A stretch of 64,000 nucleotides of DNA, from assembly GCF_013046825.1 (NCBI RefSeq), contig NZ_CP053187.1, positions 341,501 through 405,500 on the forward strand, written 5' to 3'. Both the position numbers and the translations under genes were made by a program. This DNA is from Turicibacter sanguinis (lineage in GTDB: Bacteria; Bacillota_I; Bacilli_A; MOL361; Turicibacteraceae). This document shows positions 14,879 through 38,776 of the stretch, piece after piece. The notes under the pieces are model-generated. The model ran no database searches. It was not told the origin of the DNA and saw only the letters and a list, made by a program, of their open reading frames with translations. Numbering within the stretch: position 1 is the stretch's first letter; every line of letters begins with the position of its first letter.

Positions 14879-15619
14879 TTATTTTCTTCCAAATGCTTTT
14901 TTACCAAATGATTTTCTTCGCATAGGTTCCTCTTGCGTATAAGTATAATATTGATATCCTAAATAACGAGCAGACTCCACTGGTACCATCGTTAAAACGG
15001 CTCCAAGTAATCTTGCATTGACCTTTTCTAGATGATTCTTTGCCTGTTTCGTTAGCTCGATTTGCGTTTTTCCCGAAGCTACAACTAATAAGGTTCCATC
15101 TGTTTTAGTTGCAAGTAAGGCTGCATCCGTCACAACACCAACCGGTGGCGTATCATAAATCACGACATCATATGTTTCTTTTGCTTTTTCAAAGAAATGA
15201 TTCATAGCACGTGAACTTAAAAGTTCTACTGAATTAGGCGGAATCGGGCCCGTTGTTAAGACACTTAAATTTTCTTTCACTGCGTGTACCACTTCAGAAA
15301 TTTCTAAACGACTCGCCACTACATTTGTAAGTCCACGTGAGTTTTGTAAGTCAAAAAACTTATGTAATTTGGGACGACGTAAATCAGCATCGATTAATAA
15401 GACTTTTTTTCCTGTTTGAGCATAAGCAACGGCTAAATTAACTGATGTCGTGCTCTTTCCTTCTGATGGTCCTGGACTTGTAATCGTCAATGTTTTGATA
15501 GTTTCATCTAATCCTGAGAATTGAATATTCGTATATAAGGTTCGATAGGCCTCAGTAGCAGGAGACTTTGGACTAATCAAACTAATAACGTCATTATGCT
15601 CGACTTGTTTTCGCTTCAT
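14879..15619 (-). CDS. BY-kinase of the main eps operon (CpsD/CapB/EpsB type)
   Basis: The 246-residue cytoplasmic kinase has Walker A (TSPGPSEGKSTT near residue 47), Walker A' (VLLIDADLRRP near 73) and Walker B (VVIYDTPPVG near 152). A C-terminal tyrosine cluster (YLGYQYYTYTQEE) is the autophosphorylation site. YRTLYTNIQF near the N terminus is the adaptor contact. It needs the CpsC-type membrane partner, encoded just upstream with a 26-base overlap. The pair controls chain length and export of the polysaccharide. Confidence 0.9.
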   Translation of the reverse strand: MKRKQVEHNDVISLISPKSPATEAYRTLYTNIQFSGLDETIKTLTITSPGPSEGKSTTSVNLAVAYAQTGKKVLLIDADLRRPKLHKFFDLQNSRGLTNVVASRLEISEVVHAVKENLSVLTTGPIPPNSVELLSSRAMNHFFEKAKETYDVVIYDTPPVGVVTDAALLATKTDGTLLVVASGKTQIELTKQAKNHLEKVNARLLGAVLTMVPVESARYLGYQYYTYTQEEPMRRKSFGKKAFGRK

Positions 15620-16322
15620 CCTTTTTCCCCTCCATCATTTTTTGTGCTCGATATTTTGAGAGTTCAATATCAGTATTTGGAATGACTCCCATAATTGGAA
15701 TGCCCAGTTCATCTTCTACTTCTTTTGCTGTTTTAAAAGTTGTATCTAAAACTTCTAATAAAAGGATGATTCCAATTGCTAAAACAACTCCAATCATGCC
15801 CCCTATCATAATACTTCGATTTAAATTCATTCCTGATGTCACATACGGGACTCGTGCTTCATCAACGACAGATAAATCAATATCAGACATCATTTTCTTT
15901 ACCATATCCATTAAAACTTCTGCTGTGATATTAGCAACTTTGGCAGCTGACTCTGCATTTGTATGTGTCACCGATAATTTGACGAGTGATCCATCCCCAG
16001 CACTGATACTAATACTTCCTAATGAACCACTACCTACTGCCTCAGCTATTTGTGTTCGCACTGACTGACTATTTAACATGCCAGTAAATGTTGTGATCAC
16101 ATTACTTCCAACAGAAAAATCACGACTACTCGTCGTCAATCCTGTGCTTTTATAGTGCATTAATAAAGTCGTTGACGCTTGATAAACTGGAACATAACTA
16201 CTATAGGTACGGTATCCCATTAATCCAGCTAACAAACCACCTAATAGGACGATGAGCCACCAACGTTTTTTTAATAAATCAATGTACTCATAGAAATTAA
16301 TTCCTTTTTCAGCTATTTGCAT
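15594..16322 (-). CDS. Polysaccharide chain-length regulator / BY-kinase activator (CpsC/EpsA type, Wzz domain)
   Basis: The 242-residue product has a membrane helix near residues 20-40, an extracellular Wzz-like domain, a second helix near 175-195, and a cytoplasmic tail with LGIPIMGVIPN that activates the kinase. It is the first gene of the eps operon, 238 bases after the pseudokinase gene. RBS AGGGGGATAAAAAG precedes the ATG. The C-terminal tail beyond the activator motif is rich in charged residues and overlaps the kinase gene. Confidence 0.88.
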   Translation of the reverse strand: MQIAEKGINFYEYIDLLKKRWWLIVLLGGLLAGLMGYRTYSSYVPVYQASTTLLMHYKSTGLTTSSRDFSVGSNVITTFTGMLNSQSVRTQIAEAVGSGSLGSISISAGDGSLVKLSVTHTNAESAAKVANITAEVLMDMVKKMMSDIDLSVVDEARVPYVTSGMNLNRSIMIGGMIGVVLAIGIILLLEVLDTTFKTAKEVEDELGIPIMGVIPNTDIELSKYRAQKMMEGKKDEAKTSRA

Positions 16323-16491
16323 CTTTTTATCCCCCTATTTCTAAAAATTAAACTTGGTGTGGCTAAATGTTCATTTTATTCATTTCTGTAAAATTTATAT
16401 CTTATTTTGCCTGTCAGATAGTGTCATATTATCAATAAGAATCATATTTATTGGGATATTCGACGTGTAGTGTAATCTTTTTCACTTGATT

Positions 16492-16520
16492 AGTTAAAAT
16501 TCACTATTGTAAATTGTCAA
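16492..16520 (-). promoter_or_regulatory. Probable promoter of the main eps operon
   Basis: On the minus strand TTGACA (16515-16520) and TTAACT (16492-16497) are separated by 17 bases. They lie about 170 bases before the chain-length regulator start, after the pseudokinase gene. The -35 matches consensus fully and the -10 only partly. The long leader would leave room for further control. No terminator hairpin stands out in it. Confidence 0.5.
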
Positions 16521-16560
16521 AAAGGGGAATTTAATATTTTTTAGTAAAATATGTAACAAT

Positions 16561-17211
16561 TTATATGTTATCGTAATAAGAAGAAGAATTGATGGAGCTT
16601 TTTGTAAAAATAGTTCCTATTACATTCGCCTTGACTTGATTTAATTGCTTTTGACACAGTTTTACTTTTCCTATTTTTGATTTACCTTCCTCTATTAAAA
16701 ATAAAACCCCACTTGAGTGAGTCGAAAGAATCGTTGCATCATTCACAAAGCACATTGGAGGACTTGTCATTAAAATAACATCATAGTTAGTTTTTAAATG
16801 AGATAATAATGAATTCATTTTCATCGAACCGATAACCACATTCGGATGAGGGACTAATGGTCCCGATGGTAACACATGAAGATTATGTTCAATTTCAGTA
16901 ATGGCTTTTCCTATGGGAATTTCATTTAATAATACATTACTCATCCCCGGTTCTTTGTTCAGTTGAAAAAAGCGATGTAAACGAGGACGGTATAAATCTC
17001 CCTCTACAATTAATACGCGCTGACCAATTTTAGCAAACATCAAGCCGAGTTGACTGATGATGGATCCCATTTTTTCATTGAGTTCATACGAGACAAATAA
17101 AAATATTTTATGTTTCTCATTTAAAGCACTGTATTGTAAATTCGTACGTAATGTACGATAATATTCCGAAGCATGCCTATATTCTTTAGTTATTTTTTGC
17201 GACTTTTTCAT
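16561..17211 (-). CDS. Degenerate BY-kinase paralog lacking Walker motifs (pseudokinase)
   Basis: The 216-residue protein aligns along its length with the three BY-kinases of the window: YYRTLRTNLQY at the N terminus, RPRLHRFFQL, LHVLPSGPLVP and a central NDATIL. Walker A is ELNEKMGSI instead of GPxEGKST. Walker A' has lost its first Asp (LIVEGDLYRP), and Walker B reads VILMTSPP without Asp. The tyrosine cluster is reduced to SSYYDN. The frame is intact, so it is not simply decayed; it probably does not bind ATP. I start at 17209-17211, eight bases after GGAGG. Possible roles are a scaffold or decoy for the CpsC-type activator. Confidence 0.75.
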   Translation of the reverse strand: MKKSQKITKEYRHASEYYRTLRTNLQYSALNEKHKIFLFVSYELNEKMGSIISQLGLMFAKIGQRVLIVEGDLYRPRLHRFFQLNKEPGMSNVLLNEIPIGKAITEIEHNLHVLPSGPLVPHPNVVIGSMKMNSLLSHLKTNYDVILMTSPPMCFVNDATILSTHSSGVLFLIEEGKSKIGKVKLCQKQLNQVKANVIGTIFTKSSINSSSYYDNI

Positions 17212-17325
17212 CGATTCTTCCTCCAATCAAATTAGTTTTATGTCTATTATTAGAACGATTAAAACTTATCTGAAGTTATATATATGTCAGTCAATCATTA
17301 AATAATACTTTATTAAAAAAATACC

Positions 17326-25842: not shown

Positions 25843-26547
25843 TTATCGACGTTTACGTCTTTTTTTCGTCTCTACCTGTTCTTCATAGTTATAATATTGA
25901 TAACCGTAGTATCCCTTTTTACTAACCGGCATCATTGTCATCACGACCCCAATGATTCGTGCATTGACTTGTTCTAATAATTGCTTCGCGCGTTTTGCCC
26001 CGTCAATTTGCGTTTTATGAGAAGCAACCGTTAAAATCGTCCCATCTACCATCCTAGCCACAATGGCCCCATCCGTTACCACTCCTACTGGTGGTGTATC
26101 AATTAAAATGACATCAAAATGTTGTGATAGCAGTTCAAGTAACTGTTTCATTGCTTTAGATTCCAGTAATTCCGCAGGATTTGGTGGAATTGGACCAGAA
26201 GTCAAGACTTGAAGATGACTTCCGGTGATTTGTAAAACATCCTCAAATTTTTCTTGCCCTGTTAAAACATTTGTAAGTCCGACTGCGTTCGATAACTTAA
26301 AAACTTTATGAACGCGTGGCTTTCTTAAATCTGCATCAATAATTAATGTACGCTTTCCACTTTGAGCAAACGTCTCAGCAACGTTACATAATGTCGTCGT
26401 TTTCCCTTCACCCGGTCCAGAACTTGTAATTGAAATCGTCTTTAAATCCCCATCCACATTTGAAAACTGTAAATTAGTACGAAGTGTCCGATACGCCTCA
26501 GATATCGGTGACTTCGGTTGTGTTAATGTGATAACGTCTAAACTCAT
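25843..26547 (-). CDS. BY-kinase of cassette 2 (CpsD/CapB type)
   Basis: The 234-residue kinase has intact motifs: TSSGPGEGKTTT (Walker A), LIIDADLRKPRVH (A'), VILIDTPPVG (Walker B), and a C-terminal YYGYQYYNYEEQ tyrosine cluster followed by a basic tail. I start at 26545-26547, eight bases after AGGGGG; the ATG two codons upstream is too close to that site. It differs from the main-operon kinase but is close to the kinase at 36946-37647. It is probably functional as an enzyme even though its locus is decayed. Confidence 0.88.
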   Translation of the reverse strand: MSLDVITLTQPKSPISEAYRTLRTNLQFSNVDGDLKTISITSSGPGEGKTTTLCNVAETFAQSGKRTLIIDADLRKPRVHKVFKLSNAVGLTNVLTGQEKFEDVLQITGSHLQVLTSGPIPPNPAELLESKAMKQLLELLSQHFDVILIDTPPVGVVTDGAIVARMVDGTILTVASHKTQIDGAKRAKQLLEQVNARIIGVVMTMMPVSKKGYYGYQYYNYEEQVETKKRRKRR

Positions 26548-26560
26548 CCTCATGTCCCCC

Positions 26561-27256
26561 TTACTTCATCTTTTTGCTTAATTCAAGATCTGGAATAGCT
26601 CCGATAATCGGTAATCCTAGATGACGTTCAATATCCGTCGGTGTTTTATACGTACGATCTAAAAACTCTAAAACTAAGACTAATCCAACACTGACCATCA
26701 TCCCAAGAACACCCGCAATCGCGATATTCATCATTTTATTCGGTGAGACTGGATTGACAGGAATTTCTGCTGTATCAATCGTTGATACATTATCAACCTT
26801 CATCATACTTTTTACTTCTTTTTTAAATACATACGCCACTGTATTCGCAATATTAGCTGCTAACTGAGGATTCTCATTTTTTACTTTAATTTGAATGACT
26901 TCGGTATCACCCACACCAGAGACACTCAACATATCCTGAACTTGTGATGGAGTTAAATCTAAATCTAACTTTTTAATCACATCTTCAGCAATACTACGAC
27001 TTTTTACAATTTGACTATACGTATTAACGAGTTTCTGACTCATCTGCATATCGCTATACGTCATCGTTGTTTCTTGATTTTGCTTATAATTGACTAACAT
27101 TGTCGTTGATGCCTCATAATTTGGAACCAACACAAAAAAGCTAATAATTCCTGAGGCAATAACAGCAATCACCGTTATGCTAAAAATCATTAACCAGCGT
27201 TTTTTGAGCATGCTAAAAATCTCTCGTAAATCGATTTCGTACTCGTTATTCTCCAT
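26561..27256 (-). CDS. Chain-length regulator of cassette 2 (CpsC type)
   Basis: The 231-residue protein has EYEIDLREIFSMLKKRWLMI before a first membrane helix (about residues 20-40), an extracellular domain with MTYSDMQMSQKLVNTYSQI, VNPVSPNKMMNIAIAG before the second helix near 175-195, and the tail LGLPIIGAIPDLE. It pairs with the kinase 13 bases downstream. The ATG at 27254-27256 follows GGGAGTTGAAC; 26 further codons upstream are open but lack a ribosome site. Confidence 0.88.
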   Translation of the reverse strand: MENNEYEIDLREIFSMLKKRWLMIFSITVIAVIASGIISFFVLVPNYEASTTMLVNYKQNQETTMTYSDMQMSQKLVNTYSQIVKSRSIAEDVIKKLDLDLTPSQVQDMLSVSGVGDTEVIQIKVKNENPQLAANIANTVAYVFKKEVKSMMKVDNVSTIDTAEIPVNPVSPNKMMNIAIAGVLGMMVSVGLVLVLEFLDRTYKTPTDIERHLGLPIIGAIPDLELSKKMK

Positions 27257-27450
27257 GTTCAACTCCCTTTCCCATTTAACCCCTGTCATCCTAACCCATT
27301 TCAAATGACAGTAAAAATATCCTGTTTTATACAAACAAGCTCACTATAACACGTTTTTTTTACATTTCCACCTATAATACGACACTTTTACCTATTTTTT
27401 TCTAAAAAACGTTTTCTATAGTTAAGTTAATTAATGAGTTTTCCGTTGTT

Positions 27451-27528: not shown

Positions 27529-29184
27529 ATGAAAAAAAATTTGAAGGTTTTAATTTGGATTTTTAAACACGGAAAATCAGTCTTACCGCTCATCATCCTG
27601 ACATCTATCTTAGGGGGGATTTTATCAGGAATCGGAGTTTATTCAGCATTAGTTTCGAAGTCATTAATTGATGCTGCAACAAGCGGTAATATGAATTTAG
27701 TGATTAAATGGCTCATTGTAATGGGGGCCATCTACTTTATTCGTCTTGGATTAAATATCGTGAGTTCATTAGCATCAACTTATAGTTCAACAAAGCTCTT
27801 TAATGAAATTCAAAAAAAGCTGTATATGTCCTTAACCTATAGCGAATGGATGGCGCAGTCGAAGTATCACAGTGTTAATTTACTGACGCGAATTACGAGT
27901 GATGTGGGGACCGTCTCAGGAGTGATTTTATCCTCTCTAAACTCAATTATCTCACTATCCGTAACGCTTGTGACTTCCTTCCTCGCCCTACTTTATTTAG
28001 ACCCAACCATTGCGATTTTTACAGTGACGATTACACCGATTTATCTCATTTTTAGTAAAATGTATAGCCGACGTTTGAAAACCATCTATAAAGAGGTACA
28101 AGATCAGGACATCAATTATCGTGCCTTCATCCAAGAATCTATTCAAAATCTGATGATTGTGAAGACATTTTGTCATGAAGAGCAAAATTTTGAAACATTG
28201 AATCAGCATCATCAAAAGAAACTTCAATTAAATTTGAAATCAACGCGATTCAGTTTATATTCAAGCATGATTTTTGGAACGATTTCTTTCTTTATTTATT
28301 TTGCAATTTATGGATTTAGCGCAATTAAGCTAACGACTGGTGCGCTAACATTTGGTAGTATGACCGCTCTCCTCCAACTTTATGGAAAAGTTTCAGGGCC
28401 ACTTAGCAGCTTTGCTGGAATCGGAAAGCAGTTTATTCATGGAATTGCAGCTGCAGAGCGCTTGATTGAAATTGAAAATCTGCCAACAGAACGCATTAAT
28501 AAAGACTTAAGTTCTTTGCATATCGAAAAACCGGTCATTGAATTTGAAAATGTCTCATTTGATTACACGCAAAAACAAAATATATTAAAAAATATCACCT
28601 TTAAGATTAAACCAGGTGAAACCGTTGCTTTAGTCGGGCCTTCAGGTCAGGGTAAAACGACAATTATTCGACTGATTTTGTCACTCATTAACGCGAACAA
28701 AGGAAAACTAACCATTCAAAAACAAAAGATTAGTCGCGAACACCGTCAGTTAATTTCTTATGTTCCACAAGGAAATACCCTATTCTCAGGAACGATTCGA
28801 GAAAACATCACTTTCGGAACGCCACATGCCACAGATGCAGAAATTATCGAAGCGGCTAAACAAGCATATGCGTGGGAATTTATTAATAAACTTGACGATA
28901 AACTAGACACTCGTATCGGAGAAAAAGGCCTTGGATTATCAGAAGGTCAGGCACAACGAATCGCGATTGCCCGTGCTTTCTTACGTCGAAAGCCAATTTT
29001 AATTTTGGATGAGGCAACCTCGGCACTAGATAGTCAGACCGAAATAGATGTTCTAGAATCCGTTAAAAATCTACCTCATCAACCAACATGCATCATTATT
29101 ACACACCGCCCATCCGCCCTTGAAATCTGTGACCGCGTTTTAAAACTTGAAAGTGGCTACCTTCAAGAAGAATTAGCTGGATAA
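27529..29184 (+). CDS. ABC exporter, fused permease and ATP-binding domain
   Basis: The 551-residue half-transporter has a six-helix type IV exporter domain (residues 15-300) and an ATPase domain with GPSGQGKTT (Walker A, near 368), YVPQGNTLFSGTIREN (Q loop), LSEGQAQRIAIARA (signature) and ILILDEATSALD (Walker B). It should work as a homodimer exporting a lipid, drug or peptide. There is no C39 peptidase domain. It sits 2.2 kb from the RiPP operon and is of the size and type of lasso-peptide exporters, but it is on the other strand with IS30 debris between, so a link is only a possibility. GGGGGGAACACGTT precedes the ATG. Confidence 0.88.
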   Translation: MKKNLKVLIWIFKHGKSVLPLIILTSILGGILSGIGVYSALVSKSLIDAATSGNMNLVIKWLIVMGAIYFIRLGLNIVSSLASTYSSTKLFNEIQKKLYMSLTYSEWMAQSKYHSVNLLTRITSDVGTVSGVILSSLNSIISLSVTLVTSFLALLYLDPTIAIFTVTITPIYLIFSKMYSRRLKTIYKEVQDQDINYRAFIQESIQNLMIVKTFCHEEQNFETLNQHHQKKLQLNLKSTRFSLYSSMIFGTISFFIYFAIYGFSAIKLTTGALTFGSMTALLQLYGKVSGPLSSFAGIGKQFIHGIAAAERLIEIENLPTERINKDLSSLHIEKPVIEFENVSFDYTQKQNILKNITFKIKPGETVALVGPSGQGKTTIIRLILSLINANKGKLTIQKQKISREHRQLISYVPQGNTLFSGTIRENITFGTPHATDAEIIEAAKQAYAWEFINKLDDKLDTRIGEKGLGLSEGQAQRIAIARAFLRRKPILILDEATSALDSQTEIDVLESVKNLPHQPTCIIITHRPSALEICDRVLKLESGYLQEELAG

Positions 29185-29188
29185 ACAA

Positions 29189-29227
29189 AAAAGTCATTAA
29201 ACTCACGGTGAGTCTAATGACTTTTTT
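29189..29227. terminator. Bidirectional terminator between exporter and methyltransferase
   Basis: The stem AAAGTCATTAAACTCAC / GTGAGTCTAATGACTTT has one mismatch, almost no loop, and is bordered by A-runs and T-runs. It serves both convergent genes. Confidence 0.88.
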
Positions 29228-30014
29228 CTATTTTCTTAAAAACACTATATCTCGTTACTTTTTCTGTTATCAGTTCACTATTTTTATCAAAAATAGCTGA
29301 TGTGTAATCATCTTGATTATACGAACCGAACACTTCATAATTCGAAGCAACCTTCGTATCAGTTACGGCGTATTGACTAAAATGAACAACCAATAATCCC
29401 TCTGGTTTTACATAGCTATCTAACTCAGCAACCTGTGTTTCAAACTTTTCAAATGGGTAGATTTTTTTTAAACTTTTGATGCCTTTTTCTGTAACCAGAT
29501 GCGGTGTTCGTTGTAAAACAGCCATGCAAAAAACAAGATCGAATGGTCCATATTTATTTATTTCACTCGGTTTTGACGTAATAAATTTAATGTTATCATC
29601 TACCGAATGACTTCTACAAATTTCTAAACTATGTGGATTAATTTCTGCGCCAACAATCGTTGCATTCGGAAAATACTGACGAAGTGTTAAGACTTCTTCT
29701 CCCGTTGAGCAACCATAAGATAAAATTTTAAGATTTTTATGTCCATCAAAGTAGTCACGACATCCCGAAAAAATAATAGGATAACGATCCATTCCAGTGT
29801 ATGGTGTGGTCTGTTGCAAACGAGTCGATTTAAAAACCTTCATATACATAATAGCACGATAATTCTTATCACAGACTAAACACTTCATGCTATTTAAACC
29901 TTTAACCCCAAAATCTAAACTTCCAATAACCACCCTAATAAATACATTTTTAGATGACCGATGAGTCCTAACCCATTGCCGTCCCCTTGTTAACCCTAAA
30001 AATCTAACTCCCAT
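29214..30014 (-). CDS. SAM-dependent methyltransferase, class I
   Basis: The 266-residue protein has the SAM-binding motif KILSYGCSTGEEVLTL near residue 95 (GCSTGEE as in CheR-type enzymes), GAEINPHSLEICR about 25 residues later as the acidic motif II, and FDLVFCMAVLQRTP as motif IV. A CLVCDKNY segment near residue 45 has two cysteines. It lies alone in its orientation and ends in a terminator shared with the exporter. The substrate is unknown; methylation of a small molecule, sugar or peptide are all possible. Confidence 0.7.
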   Translation of the reverse strand: MGVRFLGLTRGRQWVRTHRSSKNVFIRVVIGSLDFGVKGLNSMKCLVCDKNYRAIMYMKVFKSTRLQQTTPYTGMDRYPIIFSGCRDYFDGHKNLKILSYGCSTGEEVLTLRQYFPNATIVGAEINPHSLEICRSHSVDDNIKFITSKPSEINKYGPFDLVFCMAVLQRTPHLVTEKGIKSLKKIYPFEKFETQVAELDSYVKPEGLLVVHFSQYAVTDTKVASNYEVFGSYNQDDYTSAIFDKNSELITEKVTRYSVFKKIEKSH

Positions 30015-30257: not shown

Positions 30258-31300
30258 TTGTAATATTAAGTGCGACATATAAAAAAACTCATAAATAGAA
30301 TCTTTGTTATAGAATGAAGTTAGCATACCAAATTCTAAACAAGGAAATCTATTTATGAGTTATCACCATCTTAACACATTTTAGCGTACACGTATAAAAA
30401 TTCTTTCAAAATGGGCTATTCAACGAGACAAATTGCAAGCCAATTAAATCGCATCATTCAACCATTGCTCGTGAATTGAAACGAAATACTCAACAGACCT
30501 ATCAGGCTGAGCTAGCAGAAGAATTAGCTAGGGAACGTCGCTTAGCTTGTCATCGTCCAGAGATAAAGTCTGAAGAACTCATTCAAACTATCCAACACTA
30601 TTTAAAGCTAACTTGGTCGCTTGAACAAATTTCTAATATCGTTTTAAAAGGTGTTATTTCATTTAAAATCATTTATCGTTGGATTTACGATGGCACGATT
30701 TTATCAGGAGATTTAGGTTGTCTAAGACAAAAAGGAAAACGTCGAAAACCTCGAGAAACACGTGGACGCTTTAACATTGGAACCTCGATTCATCAACGTC
30801 CAAAAGAAGTCAAAAAACGTGAGACGTTTGGGCACTGGGAGTTGGATACTGTTGTTTCAAGTCGTGGCAAAAGTAAAGGATGTTTAGCGACCTTTGTTGA
30901 ACGTCAAACACGTTTTTATATAGTCATTAAAATAGACAATCGCTCAGCATCCGAAATGTACCGAACGATTCATCAGTTATATGAACATTTTCCTAAAAAC
31001 ACCTTTAAAACCTATACGGTTAATAGCGGAAAAGAGTTTGCTTGTTATTCCAAAGTAGAAGCCGACTTAAAGGTTCCTGTTTACTTCGTAGATGCCTATT
31101 CATCTTGACAAAGAGGAAGTAATAAAAATGCCAATGATCTTCTTCGAGAGTTTTTCGCGAATAAGACAGATTTAGCACGAGTCAGTGATAAAGAGATTAA
31201 TGAGGCACTCCCCCTCATAAATCATCGACCACGAAAATGTCTAGGTTGTAAAACTTCATTCAAGCTATTTCATGAACAACTATTGCATTTGTATTGACAA
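30258..31300 (+). mobile_element. IS30-family element, inactivated
   Basis: Imperfect inverted ends (TTGTAATATTAAGTGC at left; TTGTCAATACAAATGC at right on the minus strand) bound about 1.04 kb of IS30-type transposase sequence. Three lesions in the transposase make it inactive. The right end has a second, truncated copy at about 45100-45199. Confidence 0.75.
30355..31297 (+). pseudogene. IS30-family transposase with three inactivating lesions
   Basis: An ATG at 30355 opens MSYHHLNTF followed by a TAG where homologs read Glu (ERTRIE). Around 30454 one base is missing (AATCGCATCATTCAAC for AATCGCCATCAT), shifting the frame before TIARELKRN. At 31106-31108 a TGA stands where family members have Trp in YSSWQRGSN. 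Between these, HWELDTVVSSRGKSKGC (first Asp), TVNSGKEFA (second Asp changed to Ser; usual TxDNGxEF) and NHRPRKCLG are recognisable. The normal stop is at 31295. Confidence 0.88.
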
Positions 31301-31314
31301 TTCATCATATAAAA

Positions 31315-31347
31315 AAATCCATTAAGCCTTATAGCTTAATGGATTTT
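31315..31347. terminator. Terminator of the RiPP operon
   Basis: The stem AAATCCATTAAGC / GCTTAATGGATTT with a six-base loop has A-runs and T-runs on both sides. It lies directly after the stop of the last precursor gene on the minus strand and close to the end of the IS30 remnant. Confidence 0.88.
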
Positions 31348-31349
31348 TA

Positions 31350-31613
31350 TCAAGACATTGGATTATTTTCCTCACTTCTTGGCGTATAGCAACAACAAGT
31401 ATTCCCATGTTCAGGACAGCCAACACTCATGAAATGATCATTTGGTTTTGGATTAGAATCATTTGTATGATTTCCAGAATGACTTCCACTAGGATTGTGA
31501 TGGCAGTAGTGTTTCTCACCTCTTGCAACACTCATTTCACATTCACAACCATATTCACCATGTGTCTTATCCAATTCTAAGTTTGAAATAATTGGCGTTT
31601 CCCATTTCTTCAT
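31350..31613 (-). CDS. Candidate RiPP precursor peptide A1 (lasso-type leader, Cys/His-rich core)
   Basis: The 87-residue peptide starts MKKWETPIISNLELDKTHG. This fits the paeninodin-type leader pattern (W..P near the start, Leu, then Thr two residues before the core), recognised by B1 proteins. Cutting after His19 would give a core starting Gly with Glu at core position 8, a possible macrolactam acceptor. The core is about 68 residues, far longer than lasso cores, and holds eight Cys and seven His, including TCCCY. It ends NPMS; paeninodin-type kinases phosphorylate a C-terminal Ser. GGAGG stands ten bases before the ATG. It has no database identity I can recall. Confidence 0.65.
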   Translation of the reverse strand: MKKWETPIISNLELDKTHGEYGCECEMSVARGEKHYCHHNPSGSHSGNHTNDSNPKPNDHFMSVGCPEHGNTCCCYTPRSEENNPMS

Positions 31614-31819
31614 CTTTAATCATCCTCCAATAAATTATATATTATATTAATGACAACGATAACTCCATCAAACATTACTGGCAAAATACTTCAATGGATT
31701 CTTCATATCATGTCAATTAATACCCCCATCACTCACATTTTTATAAGACTATTTATGCTTAAGCACTGGTAACGGTTATCCCCAAATAACGTATCCAGGC
31801 ATGTTTCTCTAAATTCATA

Positions 31820-32068
31820 CTAAGATAAAGCACCGCAGACTGTCGAAGCTACATTACTATCCACCCAGTAATCTCTATCATTTGGATGTTCTGGATGATT
31901 ATCTTTACCTGCATTACTATGTAAGTGACTCATAATCCCACTACAGTCATTTGTTTTAAAATCACAGTAATTACAATAAATATATGAGATTAGCGCTGGT
32001 TCAATACCATCCTCATCTGTTTTATTTATAGTTAGATTAACTACTTCTGGCTTCATCCACTGTTTCAT
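31820..32068 (-). CDS. Candidate RiPP precursor peptide A2 (lasso-type leader, zinc-finger-like core)
   Basis: The 82-residue peptide starts MKQWMKPEVVNLTINKTDEDG, sharing K.W..P....L....KT..G with A1 and hence the leader pattern. The remainder has CNYCDFKTNDC followed by SHLHS, spaced like a C2H2 finger (C-x2-C-x12-H-x-H), and later VCGALS with a C-terminal Ser. No Asp or Glu stands at core position 7-9 under the Thr -2 rule, so a lasso ring is unlikely here. It starts 19 bases after the leader-peptidase gene, which supports its role as a substrate of the same operon. Confidence 0.65.
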   Translation of the reverse strand: MKQWMKPEVVNLTINKTDEDGIEPALISYIYCNYCDFKTNDCSGIMSHLHSNAGKDNHPEHPNDRDYWVDSNVASTVCGALS

Positions 32069-32087
32069 TTTTCATCTCTCCTTTTCC

Positions 32088-32540
32088 TTAAACAAGAATT
32101 TCAGCATTTGAAAAATAGGCAACTTGAATAAAGTGATCTTTCTCATACTGACCCGTGACAATCATTTCCCCACAGCGAATCCAAGCATGAGCCTTCATAT
32201 TGTTTAAATCATCTTTATTAACTCCAAGATAAATAGTGGTTGCTATTTTTTTACGCTTTAAAAAATGTTGTACCAGCATCGCACGAATGAGGCACTTACT
32301 TTCCCACGGAGTATATTTGCACACCAGTAAGACTAATCCTCTAATCTCTTTCGCAAGTCGATACACTTCAATTGATTCTTCTTTAGCAGACTCTTTTTTA
32401 GGAACTCCTAGTCGTTTTTTGACATATTTAAATGGTAGATACAACACCATAAAACGATAAACTCCACTTAAAATAAATGCTTCAATAAACATTAGCTGTT
32501 TTCTAAACCCAAGCTCCCAAAAAATCTTTAATTTATGCAT
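32088..32540 (-). CDS. Lasso-type B2 leader peptidase (transglutaminase-like fold)
   Basis: The 150-residue protein shows the B2 pattern: Cys83 in WESKCLIRAMLVQHFL and His118 in KAHAWIRCG, the nucleophile and general base of this papain/transglutaminase-like family, followed by the usual terminal strands (MIVTGQYEKDHFIQVAYF). The family removes the leader of lasso precursors after the conserved Thr-x. Its first eight bases overlap the B1 stop. An N-terminal hydrophobic stretch (residues 17-40) is common in split B2 proteins. Confidence 0.85.
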   Translation of the reverse strand: MHKLKIFWELGFRKQLMFIEAFILSGVYRFMVLYLPFKYVKKRLGVPKKESAKEESIEVYRLAKEIRGLVLLVCKYTPWESKCLIRAMLVQHFLKRKKIATTIYLGVNKDDLNNMKAHAWIRCGEMIVTGQYEKDHFIQVAYFSNAEILV

Positions 32541-32823
32541 GAATCATCACAAGGTTAGCGTGATGCATATTGTGTAATAAATCTTTAACTGATGCCTCAC
32601 ATTCTGCACGTTCTACCTCATACTCATTCATTAAGGATGTGATAATCGTTTCAACAGACGTTGGAGTTTTCATTAATTCCCAAACATCTCCGGCTACCCC
32701 ATTTAACATAAAATACTGACCTTTTTCAAGATCCATCATCACTTTTTCTCCATCTAAATCTGTTGCATCAATTTCATGATTACGTTCAACGACTGTAGAT
32801 AATTTCACACAATGACAACACAT
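32533..32823 (-). CDS. Lasso-type B1 / PqqD-family RiPP recognition element
   Basis: The 96-residue protein is a PqqD-like domain: a beta-rich DLDGEKVMMDLEKGQYFMLNGVAGDVWELM core and helical C terminus. PqqD-type B1 proteins bind the leader peptide and hand it to B2. The order B1-B2 with a short overlap is that of lasso clusters in Firmicutes. The N terminus carries CCHC (residues 2-5), unusual for the family and possibly a metal site. Confidence 0.85.
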   Translation of the reverse strand: MCCHCVKLSTVVERNHEIDATDLDGEKVMMDLEKGQYFMLNGVAGDVWELMKTPTSVETIITSLMNEYEVERAECEASVKDLLHNMHHANLVMIHA

Positions 32824-32835
32824 ACTAGCGCCTCC

Positions 32836-33771
32836 CTAAGCTTTTAATCTTTCTTCATTTACTAAGAATGTTTCTTCTAACCATTTAATTTGTGCATCCA
32901 CCGTCATCACACCTTTTGGGCGATAAATACGGTAGACTGGAATCTCTTTCGCAATCTCAACGCACTTCTTAAAGTACTCCGGATTCACCCCCGCAAATCG
33001 TTTCATCTCAATTCGATAAATATTGTTATAAATCGTCATCAATTTCTCCTGACCTTTTAACAACTCCACCTGAATTTCATGAATATCATCCACCACTTTT
33101 AACTCAACAATTCCGTGAAGTGGAACCTTATCATAAACAAATGATTCGCGTGCAGGGATTAAATATTTCATCTGTGTATCGCTCATCAAAGTTTTAAACT
33201 CATCTAGCTTGTACCCTAGCTGATGCATAGCGTCTTGGCACAGTTTTTGTTGTGGAAATCCAGGATGAATAAAATGACGTTGGCCGACCTCAACAGAAGA
33301 CACATCGTCTGCCACAAATGGGTATCCCTTTAAACGAAGTGCCGATGTAATCGTCGATTTCCCAGCTCCACGATCTCCTGTGAAAATAATCCCTTTCCCA
33401 TCAAAAACAATCGTTCCCCCATGAATCGCAATCATGTTACGCTGTAACATAATCATCCCAAGACAACTTCCAAGTAAGTACTGCTTTGCCATTGATAAAT
33501 CTGCGCCATGACATAACTCAATTGAAATCAAGTTCCCATCTTGCATCCAATATGTCGCTATTTCTGGAACATGGAACCACATACTTTCATTGGTATAGTC
33601 AGAACGACGACCCAATTCAATTTGTTCATGAATTTCAACCGATACCTGATTGACATCAATCAAAACATCATATTCATGTTCGTGTAGCTCATCTAATCTC
33701 ACAAGTTCAGGACATTCGATGTCTGATAAAACCTTTAATCCATAAACTAGATAACTAAATTTTTTCCCCAT
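32836..33771 (-). CDS. HprK-like precursor-peptide kinase (paeninodin-type)
   Basis: The 311-residue protein has an HPr-kinase-like fold: HGG at 117-119, P-loop GDRGAGKST at 132-140, ADD at 154-156, and HPGFPQQKL near 169. HprK-like enzymes in paeninodin-type lasso clusters phosphorylate the C-terminal Ser of the precursor. Both candidate precursors here end in Ser. It is the first gene of the operon, 12 bases before B1. It lacks the usual HPr-binding N domain. A true HPr kinase is less likely given this context. Confidence 0.82.
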   Translation of the reverse strand: MGKKFSYLVYGLKVLSDIECPELVRLDELHEHEYDVLIDVNQVSVEIHEQIELGRRSDYTNESMWFHVPEIATYWMQDGNLISIELCHGADLSMAKQYLLGSCLGMIMLQRNMIAIHGGTIVFDGKGIIFTGDRGAGKSTITSALRLKGYPFVADDVSSVEVGQRHFIHPGFPQQKLCQDAMHQLGYKLDEFKTLMSDTQMKYLIPARESFVYDKVPLHGIVELKVVDDIHEIQVELLKGQEKLMTIYNNIYRIEMKRFAGVNPEYFKKCVEIAKEIPVYRIYRPKGVMTVDAQIKWLEETFLVNEERLKA

Positions 33772-34069: not shown

Positions 34070-35365
34070 TTATTTATTCATTTTAGTACTAATGTTGACA
34101 ATATCATATAAGTCAATGATGCCATCTCCATTTAAATCGAATTTTTCATTCCATTCGGAATCTTGACTGGTCACCTGATATAACGTAGCTAATAGCTCAA
34201 GATCCCTCTCATCGATCACTCCATCGTTATTTAGGTCTAAATGACCTAAAACAAGTACTTCTTGACTTAAAAGTCTCCCGTCATAGTTACTATCGCGAAC
34301 TTCGACTGAAATAACTTGTCCACTGTACTCTTTTGTTACCACAAAGGTTGAAGCAGTCGCACCAGGGATTTCTGTTCGATCCGCAAACCATTGATACGTG
34401 ATATTTTGCATCCCAGCTGGTAATCCACTTAATTCTGCCGTTAATGTTTCTCCGATTTTTGGAGTTCCTTTTAACGTAAGAGTCCCTGTTAATTCAGGTA
34501 ATAACACGCGAGTCGTTGAAGTGGATAAGTGTTCGATATAATCATCAGCTGTCACAACCACACTAATAATGTGTCCCACATGTTCTGGCTTTAACTCTAA
34601 AGTAGCTGAAGTGGCTCCTGAAATCTCTTAATCCTCCATTAACCATTGATACTTTAACTGAGAGGTTTGAGCATTTTCTACAACTGCTTGTAAGGTTTCT
34701 CCCTGTCTTGGAGTTCCTTCTATGCGGACGGTTCCTTGTAATTTATTCGTTAACACAGTCTTTTCTGAACTTGAGACACTTCCAATATAATTGCTTGCTC
34801 GAACTTCGACTTGAATCGATTTCCCAACATAGTCTTCTTTTAATTCTAAAGTCTGCTCCATTCCATCGTAAACTTCTTGTCCATCTACTAACCATCTATA
34901 TTTTAATCGCTCTGCATCTTGAGGGAAATCTTTCGTCGTCGCCGTTAATGTGTCTCCCACTTTTAACGTATCACTCAATTCTACTGAACCTGTTAGATGA
35001 GGAATACTTTCATTTTCCTGACTTCTTAAAACAGTAATCATTTTTGTAATCACCGATCCCGTTGGGATATGTTCTAATTTAATCGTTAAGTCACCCTCAT
35101 AATCTTTCAAATCAAGTTCGCCTGAATTTGGATCATCTGGATCTGGATATTTATAAATAAATGCGATTATAACATTTCCATCTAAGTCAAAATAGACAGT
35201 TAAATCCATATCATCATCTTCGGTCACTTCAAGATCATTTTGTGAATGTTTAATAAAAGATAATTTAAAGTTGCCTAAATCATCTGGAATATACTCTTCA
35301 TCAAACTCATTAATATACTGCACAGGGAAGAGATATTCCTCCATAGCGATAGGATTAATCAGTTG
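34070..35365 (-). pseudogene. Surface protein fragment with Ig-like repeats and C-terminal dockerin-like module
   Basis: The coding sequence runs in one frame from about 35365 to 34070 but has a TAA at 34628-34630 between LMED and EISGATSATLEL. The part before the stop has Ig-like repeats (LTGSVELSDTLKVGDTL, YRWLVDGQEV, LQGTVRIEGTPRQGETL). The part after it has another (LTGTLTLKGTPKIGETL, YQWFADRTEIPG) and ends in two calcium-loop repeats, DLNNDGVIDERDL and DLNGDGIIDLYDI, as in dockerins. The 5' end, with any signal peptide, is gone and replaced by an IS3 stub. The intact protein was probably secreted and bound a cohesin or cell-surface partner. Confidence 0.82.
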
Positions 35366-35473
35366 AGTTTCATCTTTCTTCGGTTTAGACTCATAATAAT
35401 AAGTGCTACGAGGCACATTAAGGACTTTGCACATCGCTGAAACTGAATATTTGTGTGTATTGTTTTTAATCAC
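34628..35473 (-). pseudogene. Chimeric reading frame: IS3 OrfB stub joined to surface-protein fragment
   Basis: The first 36-41 residues (SVSAMCKVLNVPRSTYYYE and following lysines) are the start of an IS3 OrfB. From about residue 40 the protein becomes the acidic, Ig-like surface-protein segment. The junction is in frame, giving a 281-residue frame that ends at a TAA. It arose by deletion or recombination between an IS and a surface-protein gene. A functional product is unlikely, as it has neither a transposase core nor a signal peptide. Confidence 0.8.
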
Positions 35474-35843
35474 ATTTATCTTTGTCCTAAGATCAGCGCG
35501 GCTTGCTTTAAAATATCATTTTCCATTTCCAATTGCTTAACTTTTTTACGAAGTTGGATTAACTCCTGTTCTTCTTCTGAGCGGTTATCTTTCTCCTTAA
35601 AAGAACCTGTAGAAGTTGACTGTTTAATCCATTTATCGAGTAAAGACGATGAGATATCGTATTCACGAACAATATCACATTTACGTTTCCCATTTAAATA
35701 AAGCTGGACTAATTGGTTTTTAAATTCATCTGTATACGTACGGCGTGGTCTACGAGTTTTAGTTTGGGTCATGTTAAAGCTCCTTTAGATTGATATTATT
35801 TATAATTCTACATGACCTTAAAAAAACTGTCTAATTAATTGTA
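35345..35843 (-). mobile_element. Truncated IS3-family element
   Basis: It contains an intact orfA and only the first codons of orfB. The missing 3' half includes all catalytic residues. At the right it borders a GT8 gene fragment after GGTTACAATTAATT on the minus strand. It is a different IS3 lineage from the tandem pair at 22-24.7 kb. The exact ends are not fixed by a matching inverted repeat. Confidence 0.65.
35476..35772 (-). CDS. IS3-family OrfA of a truncated element
   Basis: The 98-residue protein starts with a basic stretch (KTRRPRRTYTDEFKNQLVQL), has a helix-turn-helix (CDIVREYDISSSLLDKWIKQ) and a heptad coil (ELIQLRKKVKQLEMENDIL). It is full length for OrfA. Without a complete orfB it cannot support transposition by itself, but it could still bind related ends. 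Confidence 0.85.
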   Translation of the reverse strand: MTQTKTRRPRRTYTDEFKNQLVQLYLNGKRKCDIVREYDISSSLLDKWIKQSTSTGSFKEKDNRSEEEQELIQLRKKVKQLEMENDILKQAALILGQR

Positions 35844-36945: not shown

Positions 36946-37647
36946 CTAATTTCGTCTCTTTTTCTTTAATTCATTTTCTTCATAGTAACCATAATACTGA
37001 TACCCGTAATACCCTTTTTTACTTACTGGTATCATTGTCATCGTTACGCCTAAAATACGAGCCCCAACATTCTCAAGTAGTTTTTTTGCACGTTTTGCCC
37101 CATCAATATCAGTTTTCCCCGATGCCACTACTAAGATGATTCCATCTACAATGGCTGATAAAATAGCCGCATCTGTTACCAATCCAACTGGAGGTGCATC
37201 AATTAAAACAATGTCATATCTTTTTTTTAACACTTCCAATAAATCTTTCATTCTTTTTGACCCCAATAACTCTGATGGATTTGGGGGAATCGGACCACTA
37301 GTAATGACTGTTAAATCAGATCCAGCCACTTGAATCACATCTTCAATCTCACTTTGTCCTGATAGTAACGTCGTGACACCTTTTGTATTCGTTAATTTAA
37401 AAATCCTGTGAAGACGCGGCTTACGCAAATCACAATCTATAATCGCAACTCTATTTCCAGCCTGAGCAAAGGTTTCTGCTAAGTTTGAAATGGTCGTTGA
37501 TTTTCCTTCTCCAGGCCCTGAACTGGTTACACAAATAGTTTGTAAATTTCCATCGATATTTGAAAATTGAATATTCGTACGAAGGGTGCGATATGCCTCG
37601 GCAACTGGTGATTTTGGATTTGATATTGTAATTAAGTCACTCATCAT
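36946..37647 (-). CDS. BY-kinase of cassette 3 (CpsD/CapB type)
   Basis: The 233-residue kinase has TSSGPGEGKSTT, VAIIDCDLRKPRLH, IVLIDAPPVG and a C-terminal YYGYQYYGYYEEN cluster with a KKKRRN end. It resembles the cassette 2 kinase closely. RBS AGAGG lies seven bases before the ATG. The activator gene upstream is frameshifted, so unless the frame is restored or a paralog acts in trans the kinase lacks its membrane partner. Confidence 0.88.
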   Translation of the reverse strand: MMSDLITISNPKSPVAEAYRTLRTNIQFSNIDGNLQTICVTSSGPGEGKSTTISNLAETFAQAGNRVAIIDCDLRKPRLHRIFKLTNTKGVTTLLSGQSEIEDVIQVAGSDLTVITSGPIPPNPSELLGSKRMKDLLEVLKKRYDIVLIDAPPVGLVTDAAILSAIVDGIILVVASGKTDIDGAKRAKKLLENVGARILGVTMTMIPVSKKGYYGYQYYGYYEENELKKKRRN

Positions 37648-37662
37648 TTCACATCCTCTTTC

Positions 37663-38358
37663 CTATTTAAGTTTTTTTTCCATTTCAATATCTGGGATAG
37701 CTCCAATAAGCGGTAATCCTAATTGACGTTCAACATCTGTTGGAATCTTCAAGGTACGATCTAAAAATTCTAATATAAATGCAAGCCCTACACTCACCAT
37801 CATACCAAAAACACCTGCAATGGCCATATTCATGATTTTATTTGGTTTGACAGGACATTCAGGTACTTGGGCTGTATCAATGGTTGACACGTTGTCAATT
37901 TCCATAATGTTTTTAATTTCTTTTTTAAAAACATCCGCAATCGTATTTGTCAGTAAAGTAGCGGTCTCAGGATTTGTATCACTAACTTTAATTCGAATGA
38001 TTTCGGTATCATTCACCTTAGAAACTGTAATCTTTTTTGATAATTCTTCAGCTGTTAAATCTAAATTTAATTGCTTTATCACAGCTTCAGAAATACTTCG
38101 ACTCTTAATAATTTCACTATAAGTATTCACAAGTTTTTGGCTCATGGTTAAATCATTATAAGTCATAATACTTTCCTGATTTTGTTTATAACTAACTAAT
38201 AACGTTGATGAGGATTCATAAACAGGTGATAAAATAAAAAAAACTAATAACCCCTGCTATAATGACAGAAGTTGCGGTAATACTACAAATCATTAACCAA
38301 CGTTTTTTTAGGACATTAAAAATGTCTCGCAAATCAATTTCATATTCTGTATTTTCCA
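37663..38358 (-). pseudogene. Chain-length regulator of cassette 3 with frameshift in an A8/T8 tract
   Basis: An ATG at 38356-38358 with AGGGGAGTTGAAC opens a CpsC-type frame (EYEIDLRDIFNVLKKRWLMI) that runs into the first membrane helix and stops about 47 codons later. The rest continues one frame off, from SPVYESSSTLLVSY through to LGLPLIGAIPDIE. The break falls at eight T (minus strand) near 38236; seven would restore the frame and match the cassette 2 protein. It may be a pseudogene, a phase-variable gene or a sequencing error. An ATG at 38164-38166 gives a 167-residue part without the first helix. Confidence 0.82.
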
Positions 38359-38776
38359 TGTTCAACTCCCCTTCTTCATCCTTCTATTTATTAATTCGAC
38401 TTCACACAAAAAACTATTTCTTCAAAAACAAAACCATTATAGCACCTTTTCTTTTCCCCCTTCGGTCATTTCACGACTTATTTCGACACATTCAAGAACG
38501 ACCGATTCAGGCAACTTTTATTTATTCTATATTTTTCTAATGATAGCTATTTCAAACCTAAAACCAGATTTTTCTTATATTTATTTAAAATTAATTGATT
38601 CCTGATTTCATCGCATCGAGTAAAATCACAGATCAGTTTCATGTATTAAATTGATGGTATAAAAAAAAGCCATAGTGAAATCATTTTTTGACTTCACTAT
38701 GACTTTTTTTGCAATCTCATTAAACTTAAATCGTATGAATCATTGACTATATATATCAGAAAAATCTTCTATTTGG
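38359..38776. other. Intergenic region upstream of cassette 3
   Basis: AT-rich spacer that should contain the cassette 3 promoter, with no strong consensus I can fix. It includes the terminator at 38667-38705. No intact gene was found. Confidence 0.5.
38667..38705. terminator. Terminator downstream of the LCP fragment
   Basis: The stem AGCCATAGTGAAATCA / TGACTTCACTATGACT, with small mismatches and a short T loop, is flanked by A8 and T7. It can act in both directions. Confidence 0.85.

Follow-up and report, generated by a model that had tools for sequence, protein, structure and literature searches.

Paeninodin-type machinery accompanying long Cys/His-rich precursor peptides in a locus of Turicibacter sanguinis without a lasso cyclase

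In MNIO-type RiPPs such as the bufferins and methanobactins, the processing of a Cys-rich, metal-handling core is guided by a leader. In paeninodin-type lasso peptide biosynthesis, cleavage of the leader by PadeB1 and PadeB2 is independent of the cyclase PadeC (PMC5067487), and the tail kinase takes the linear precursor as its substrate, requiring a C-terminal Ser while the rest of the peptide matters little (PMC8498205). By these findings, a missing cyclase would be needed for the ring alone. Genome mining calls lasso clusters by the combination of B1/B2 with a cyclase and sets the remainder aside. The discrete lasso RRE model of RRE-Finder retrieved almost 8,000 proteins, of which ~4,000 co-occur with a leader peptidase and a cyclase, and lasso RREs without these partners were treated as possible false positives (PMC7470986). 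Neither lasso clusters without a cyclase nor zinc-finger RiPPs are described in the literature searched, which covers few subscription papers and preprints, and Cys/His cores of the present kind are likewise not described there.

The locus described here lies within a 64 kb stretch of the T. sanguinis genome, hereafter the window. Five genes follow one another on the minus strand in the order kinase, B1, B2, A2 and A1, forming a compact operon in which B2 overlaps B1. The kinase (32836..33771) is a diverged relative of HPr kinase of the lasso tail kinase type: its PF07475 score of 28.6 bits falls under the cut-off of 33.3, an alignment shows all eight active-site residues intact (H116, G131, G134, G136, K137, S138, D154 and D155), and both motif and spacing match BsfK, a biochemically tested lasso kinase. 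B1 (32533..32823), a PqqD-like leader-binding RRE, and B2 (32088..32540), a leader peptidase of the transglutaminase fold, both exceed the cut-offs of the curated NCBI lasso models, with 84.3 bits to NF033536 (cut-off 80) and 84.5 bits to NF033537 (cut-off 33), respectively. B2 also matches PF13471 with 75.7 bits, retains the aligned residues C82 and H117 and is encoded in a single copy in the genome. The kinase and B1 of the clostridial cluster L132 are 45% and 48% identical to those of the window.

The two precursor genes are located where an earlier note on this DNA had placed them. A2 (31820..32068, minus strand) encodes 82 aa with the leader MKQWMKPEVVNLTINKTD, a core containing the finger-like segment CNYCDFKTNDCSGIMSHLH and the C-terminus GALS, and is preceded by the Shine-Dalgarno sequence GGAGAG (32076..32081, minus strand). 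A1 (31350..31613, minus strand) encodes 87 aa with the lasso-type leader MKKWETPIISNLELDKTH and the C-terminus NPMS, preceded by GGAGG (31624..31628, minus strand). It had been credited with eight Cys and seven His; the richness in both residues stands, and the corrected count is 7 Cys and 8 His overall, with 7 of each in the core. Immediately past the stop codon of A1, a strong hairpin carrying a U tract (31313..31348, minus strand; -19.2 kcal/mol, z=-6.2) appears to be the operon terminator.

As had been claimed from inspection, both precursors end in Ser and share a lasso-type leader, reading K-[KQ]-W-x2-P-x4-L-x4-K-T in A1 and A2 alike. The likeness to the leader that marks lasso clusters, [YW]xxPxL with a Thr near the cleavage site, was quantified with a profile of 19 columns, for which 48 precursors from elsewhere, without A1 and A2, served as the training set. 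Of the window's 1,130 stop-to-stop segments, A2 scores best (E 2.9e-5) and A1 second best (E 4e-4), the next segment (E 0.096) being more than two orders of magnitude weaker. A profile derived from Bacilli lasso precursors alone was too narrow and missed both. A1 and A2 are real genes, in view of these ranks, their good ribosome sites, the terminal Ser, their place behind kinase, B1 and B2, and the terminator.

The complete genome (3.0 Mb, one contig) encodes no lasso cyclase, and a tblastn search of the window revealed no cyclase remnant. An Asn-synthetase-like lasso cyclase (C protein) is what defines a lasso cluster, and with none genome-wide the locus does not qualify as one. Lasso precursors combine a short core with an Asp/Glu acceptor at ring position 7-9; here the cores measure 69 (A1) and 64 (A2) residues, and the acceptor column (Thr+10/+11) is non-acidic in A1 and in A2. 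Assuming cleavage after Thr-x, A1 does carry a Glu at core position 8, as previously observed, but its proposed role as ring acceptor is not supported: the genome has no lasso cyclase, the residue lies off the acceptor column, and it is not conserved in homologs.

The two cores were also said to diverge completely, which holds for A1 against A2; the A1 core, however, has homologs in other genomes. Intact copies are found at L132:7496-7795 (genome G975), L131:11602-11892 (G947) and L130:9144-9425 (G995), so that the A1 family comprises four genomes, the window's included, and in L131 and L132 the homolog lies immediately downstream of B2. An A1-family pseudogene with an internal TGA and TAG (L130:7718-7980, minus strand) occupies the position right after B2 in L130, a cluster which also holds the intact paralog. 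When cores only are compared, none of 5,000 shuffles reaches the score of A1 against the L132 homolog (p 0.0002); for the L130 homolog, p is 0.01. The L132 homolog keeps 14/15 of the aligned core Cys and His residues of A1 versus 16/55 of the others (Fisher p 8e-6), and nine of the 12 residues identical across all four family members are Cys or His. With a dN/dS of 0.28 between L131 and L132, the family is under purifying selection. No clear homolog of A2 was found, and an AlphaFold model of A2 alone, calculated without an alignment, is uninformative (pLDDT 53).

The conserved Cys and His residues of the A1 family have the look of a metal site or of a disulfide framework, and the sequence fits both. 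Because His is kept alongside Cys, metal is favoured, and the cores seem more likely to be folded by metal than by disulfides. Gram-positive exported peptides often carry disulfide bonds, and A1, with its 7 Cys including a CCC run, as well as a Cys/Ser-rich precursor of L130 (5117-5287), would suit a bacteriocin-like, disulfide-rich product that takes the same route of leader, kinase, protease and exporter and binds no metal. Such a product is nevertheless considered unlikely, given the retained His, the odd number of Cys in A1 and a relative at L130:14672-14890 with the textbook C2H2 spacing C-x2-C-x12-H-x4-H (PF00096, 17.6 bits, E=0.005, under the cut-off of 25.2). A2 shows the C-x2-C-x12-H-x-H spacing reported for it, where C2H2 zinc fingers have C-x2-4-C-x12-H-x3-5-H, and its CDFKT resembles a C2H2 finger, with zf-H2C2_5 as the best Pfam finger at 12.2 bits, far under the cut-off of 27. 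Both matches lie below the Pfam cut-offs, and the idea of C2H2-like fingers in these cores is no more than suggestive.

A scan of genome contigs together with searches of clostridial genomes identified many kinase loci, which fall into two sorts according to whether a cyclase is adjacent. Precursors next to a cyclase have a median core of 25 aa with a median of 1 Cys+His, as opposed to 56 aa and 5 Cys+His for precursors away from one (length difference p=0.0006, Cys/His density p=0.002, with one count per locus). An acidic acceptor at Thr+10 or +11 is present in 16/17 of the cyclase-adjacent precursors versus 3/17 of the others, and 24 of the 30 precursors away from a cyclase end in Ser. The layout without a cyclase, consisting of kinase, B1, B2, exporter and lasso-type leaders on long Cys/His-rich cores with a final Ser, recurs in clostridial genomes. 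Genomes G995, G975, G833 and G1113 carry such precursors and yielded no lasso cyclase genome-wide, an absence which, owing to the fragmented state of some of the comparison assemblies, weighs less than that in the complete genome of the window. The leader pattern, whose absence from orthologous clusters the earlier note had named as counter-evidence, is present there. Its view of A1 and A2 as substrates of B1, B2 and the kinase, yielding a metal-binding or disulfide-rich RiPP and no lasso peptide, gains support.

The related clusters vary considerably in composition. In L130 (5117-14890), a single B2 is surrounded by seven kinase genes, of which one is truncated, and by five or more precursors with lasso leaders; kinase-precursor pairs have apparently multiplied. 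A second conserved precursor family (L131:12318-12587 and L132:6655-6924) has 89 aa, two CxxC pairs, the ending VGLS and a dN/dS of 0.12. Cyclase-linked clostridial precursors of L123, L124, L125, L127 and L128 share a conserved Asp at Thr+11 and may be cleaved after Thr-x-x, giving a ring of 9, instead of after Thr-x. A precursor next to a kinase at L048:7106-7327 (minus strand) joins a lasso-type leader to a Thr/Pro-rich core of 73 aa ending in FPWFPWWPW; in that genome, which also holds L075, B1/B2 lie on a different contig and a search for a lasso cyclase found none.

On the kinase tree, the window kinase groups with the kinases of cyclase-free clusters (support 97/89). The same clade includes G947, where a cyclase lies elsewhere in the cluster region, and G972, where the L135 kinase adjoins a cyclase; adjacency to a cyclase thus alternates repeatedly across the tree, and the cyclase has switched between presence and absence more than once. 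No relative of the window kinase was detected in four congeners or in nearly 400 genomes of the class, so the locus was probably acquired horizontally. Weak kinase matches across the phylum were rejected as short P-loop matches. No relatives emerged from viral contigs scanned with the kinase as a single protein, from scans with alignments of the A1 and kinase families, or from a search of A1 against plasmids.

Insertion sequence remnants flank the locus at 30476-31108 and 34628-35772, and the closest kinase of the first genome scan sits in a cyclase-bearing cluster (L023). Both observations would fit a degraded lasso cluster whose paeninodin-type ancestor lost its cyclase through insertion-sequence activity, leaving A1 and A2 as drifting leftovers. 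This scenario is improbable, and the conservation of the A1 family already speaks against it: other genomes hold the same cyclase-free set together with many intact precursors, the Cys and His residues of the A1 core are selectively conserved with low dN/dS among homologs, a conserved ring acceptor is lacking from both cores, and the gene set of the window is intact throughout. In an open frame at 34070-35473, the beginning of an IS3-type transposase is fused to the mid-part of a surface protein with repeats, those at its end (34070-34579) being dockerin-like; here the remnant of an IS has merged with a gene of the host. Pairs of Wzz/BY-kinase-like genes with sugar transferases recur around the cluster (14879-17226, 25843-27334 and 36946-38365), and the peptide operon is embedded in a repeatedly duplicated exopolysaccharide region.

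Two further genes are assigned to the set on the basis of their identity to proteins of clostridial clusters. An ABC exporter (27529..29184, plus strand; PF00664 and PF00005) is 50% and 49% identical to the exporters of L130 and L132 and, with no match to peptidase C39, has no peptidase domain. A SAM methyltransferase (29214..30014, minus strand; PF13847) is 58% identical to one located between precursor and B1 in the cyclase-free cluster L088 and is probably a tailoring enzyme. It shows a faint match to the C-terminal part of OvoA (mercaptohistidine N-methyltransferase; E=1.7e-4, far under the cut-off); methylation of His in the His-rich cores would be a speculative role for it. The precursors have an exporter and a leader peptidase alongside them in the window as well as in L088, L130, L132 and L136. 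Together with the wide variation of the cores between paralogs, this makes it very improbable that A1 and A2 are cytoplasmic regulators or adaptors which share the leader alone and are not exported, even if their finger-like spacing recalls nucleic-acid- or protein-binding fingers. Scarcely credible is the closure of A1 and A2 into lasso or macrolactam peptides by an unlinked enzyme such as a housekeeping AsnB, for although A1 has its Glu8 and the genome encodes two full-length AsnB-type proteins, these reach at most 122 bits against the lasso-cyclase profile (control genomes: 746-1,021 for their genuine lasso cyclases) and sit in ordinary neighbourhoods, so that profile score and gene context rule them out, while A2 lacks an acceptor, that of A1 is not conserved in homologs, and the cores are 2-3x too long.

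The reading we consider likely is that the locus represents a cyclase-free branch of the paeninodin-type machinery, making Cys/His peptides which are phosphorylated at the tail, freed of their leader and exported. All biochemical steps are predicted from the genes, their order and homologs, the missing cyclase and the conserved Cys and His residues. B1 would bind A1 and A2 through their K.W..P....L....T leader and pass the peptide to two enzymes, the kinase for phosphorylation of the C-terminal Ser and B2 for cleavage of the leader just past the Thr (Thr-x); no ring would be closed. Cys and His would instead shape the freed core of 60-70 residues, most probably as ligands of a metal, zinc for example, with disulfides as a possibility. 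In A1 the metal framework would consist of the conserved CxC / HxCH / H / GC / H / CCC and in A2 of the C2H2-like finger. The neighbouring methyltransferase would perhaps methylate the core, and the peptide would leave the cell through the ABC exporter. Glycosylation of the phosphate by a nucleotidyltransferase, known from pseudomycoidin, could be an additional step in the clostridial clusters. Candidate roles for the product include antimicrobial activity, metal scavenging and signalling.

Whether this cyclase-free type of locus deserves a class of its own is an even call. It is about equally plausible as not that a separate, undescribed RiPP class extends over Clostridia and one or more further lineages of Bacillota: leader-guided, exported mini-proteins which are phosphorylated (in places phosphoglycosylated) at the C-terminus, fold around metal by zinc-finger-like Cys/His frameworks, are made by lasso B1, B2 and kinase without a cyclase, and come from clusters in which kinase-precursor pairs have multiplied around a single B2. 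The locus suggests that part of the remainder of RRE-Finder may represent a genuine, conserved class of products whose cores resemble metal fingers. This raises the questions of what role lasso leader, peptidase and tail kinase play when no lasso is made, and why an exported Cys/His peptide should be phosphorylated at its tail.

Among known systems, siamycin and BI-32169 share the lasso machinery and Cys within the core; these disulfide-bearing lasso peptides are, however, short and threaded, contain one or two disulfides and are made with a cyclase. The leader-guided, Cys-rich core recalls the bufferins and methanobactins, metal handling being predicted in the present case; unlike these MNIO-type RiPPs, the locus uses a lasso-type RRE and leader for recognition and includes a kinase, and none of the neighbouring genes was recognised as encoding an MNIO/DUF692 enzyme. 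Pseudomycoidin, a phosphoglycosylated lasso peptide, has the set of kinase and nucleotidyltransferase that is common in clostridial cyclase-free clusters, but its product is a lasso, and tblastn found no nucleotidyltransferase copy or remnant in the 64 kb window. The closest likeness is to the paeninodin type (PadeA/B1/B2/K/C), with which the locus shares the leader pattern, the split B1/B2, the HPr-kinase homolog, the C-terminal Ser and the ABC exporter. It differs in having no cyclase, no conserved Asp/Glu acceptor, a Cys/His-rich core of 60-70 residues (about 23 in paeninodin) and an extra methyltransferase. Judged by its genes, the locus is not a lasso peptide cluster and appears to carry out only the opening half of the paeninodin pathway.
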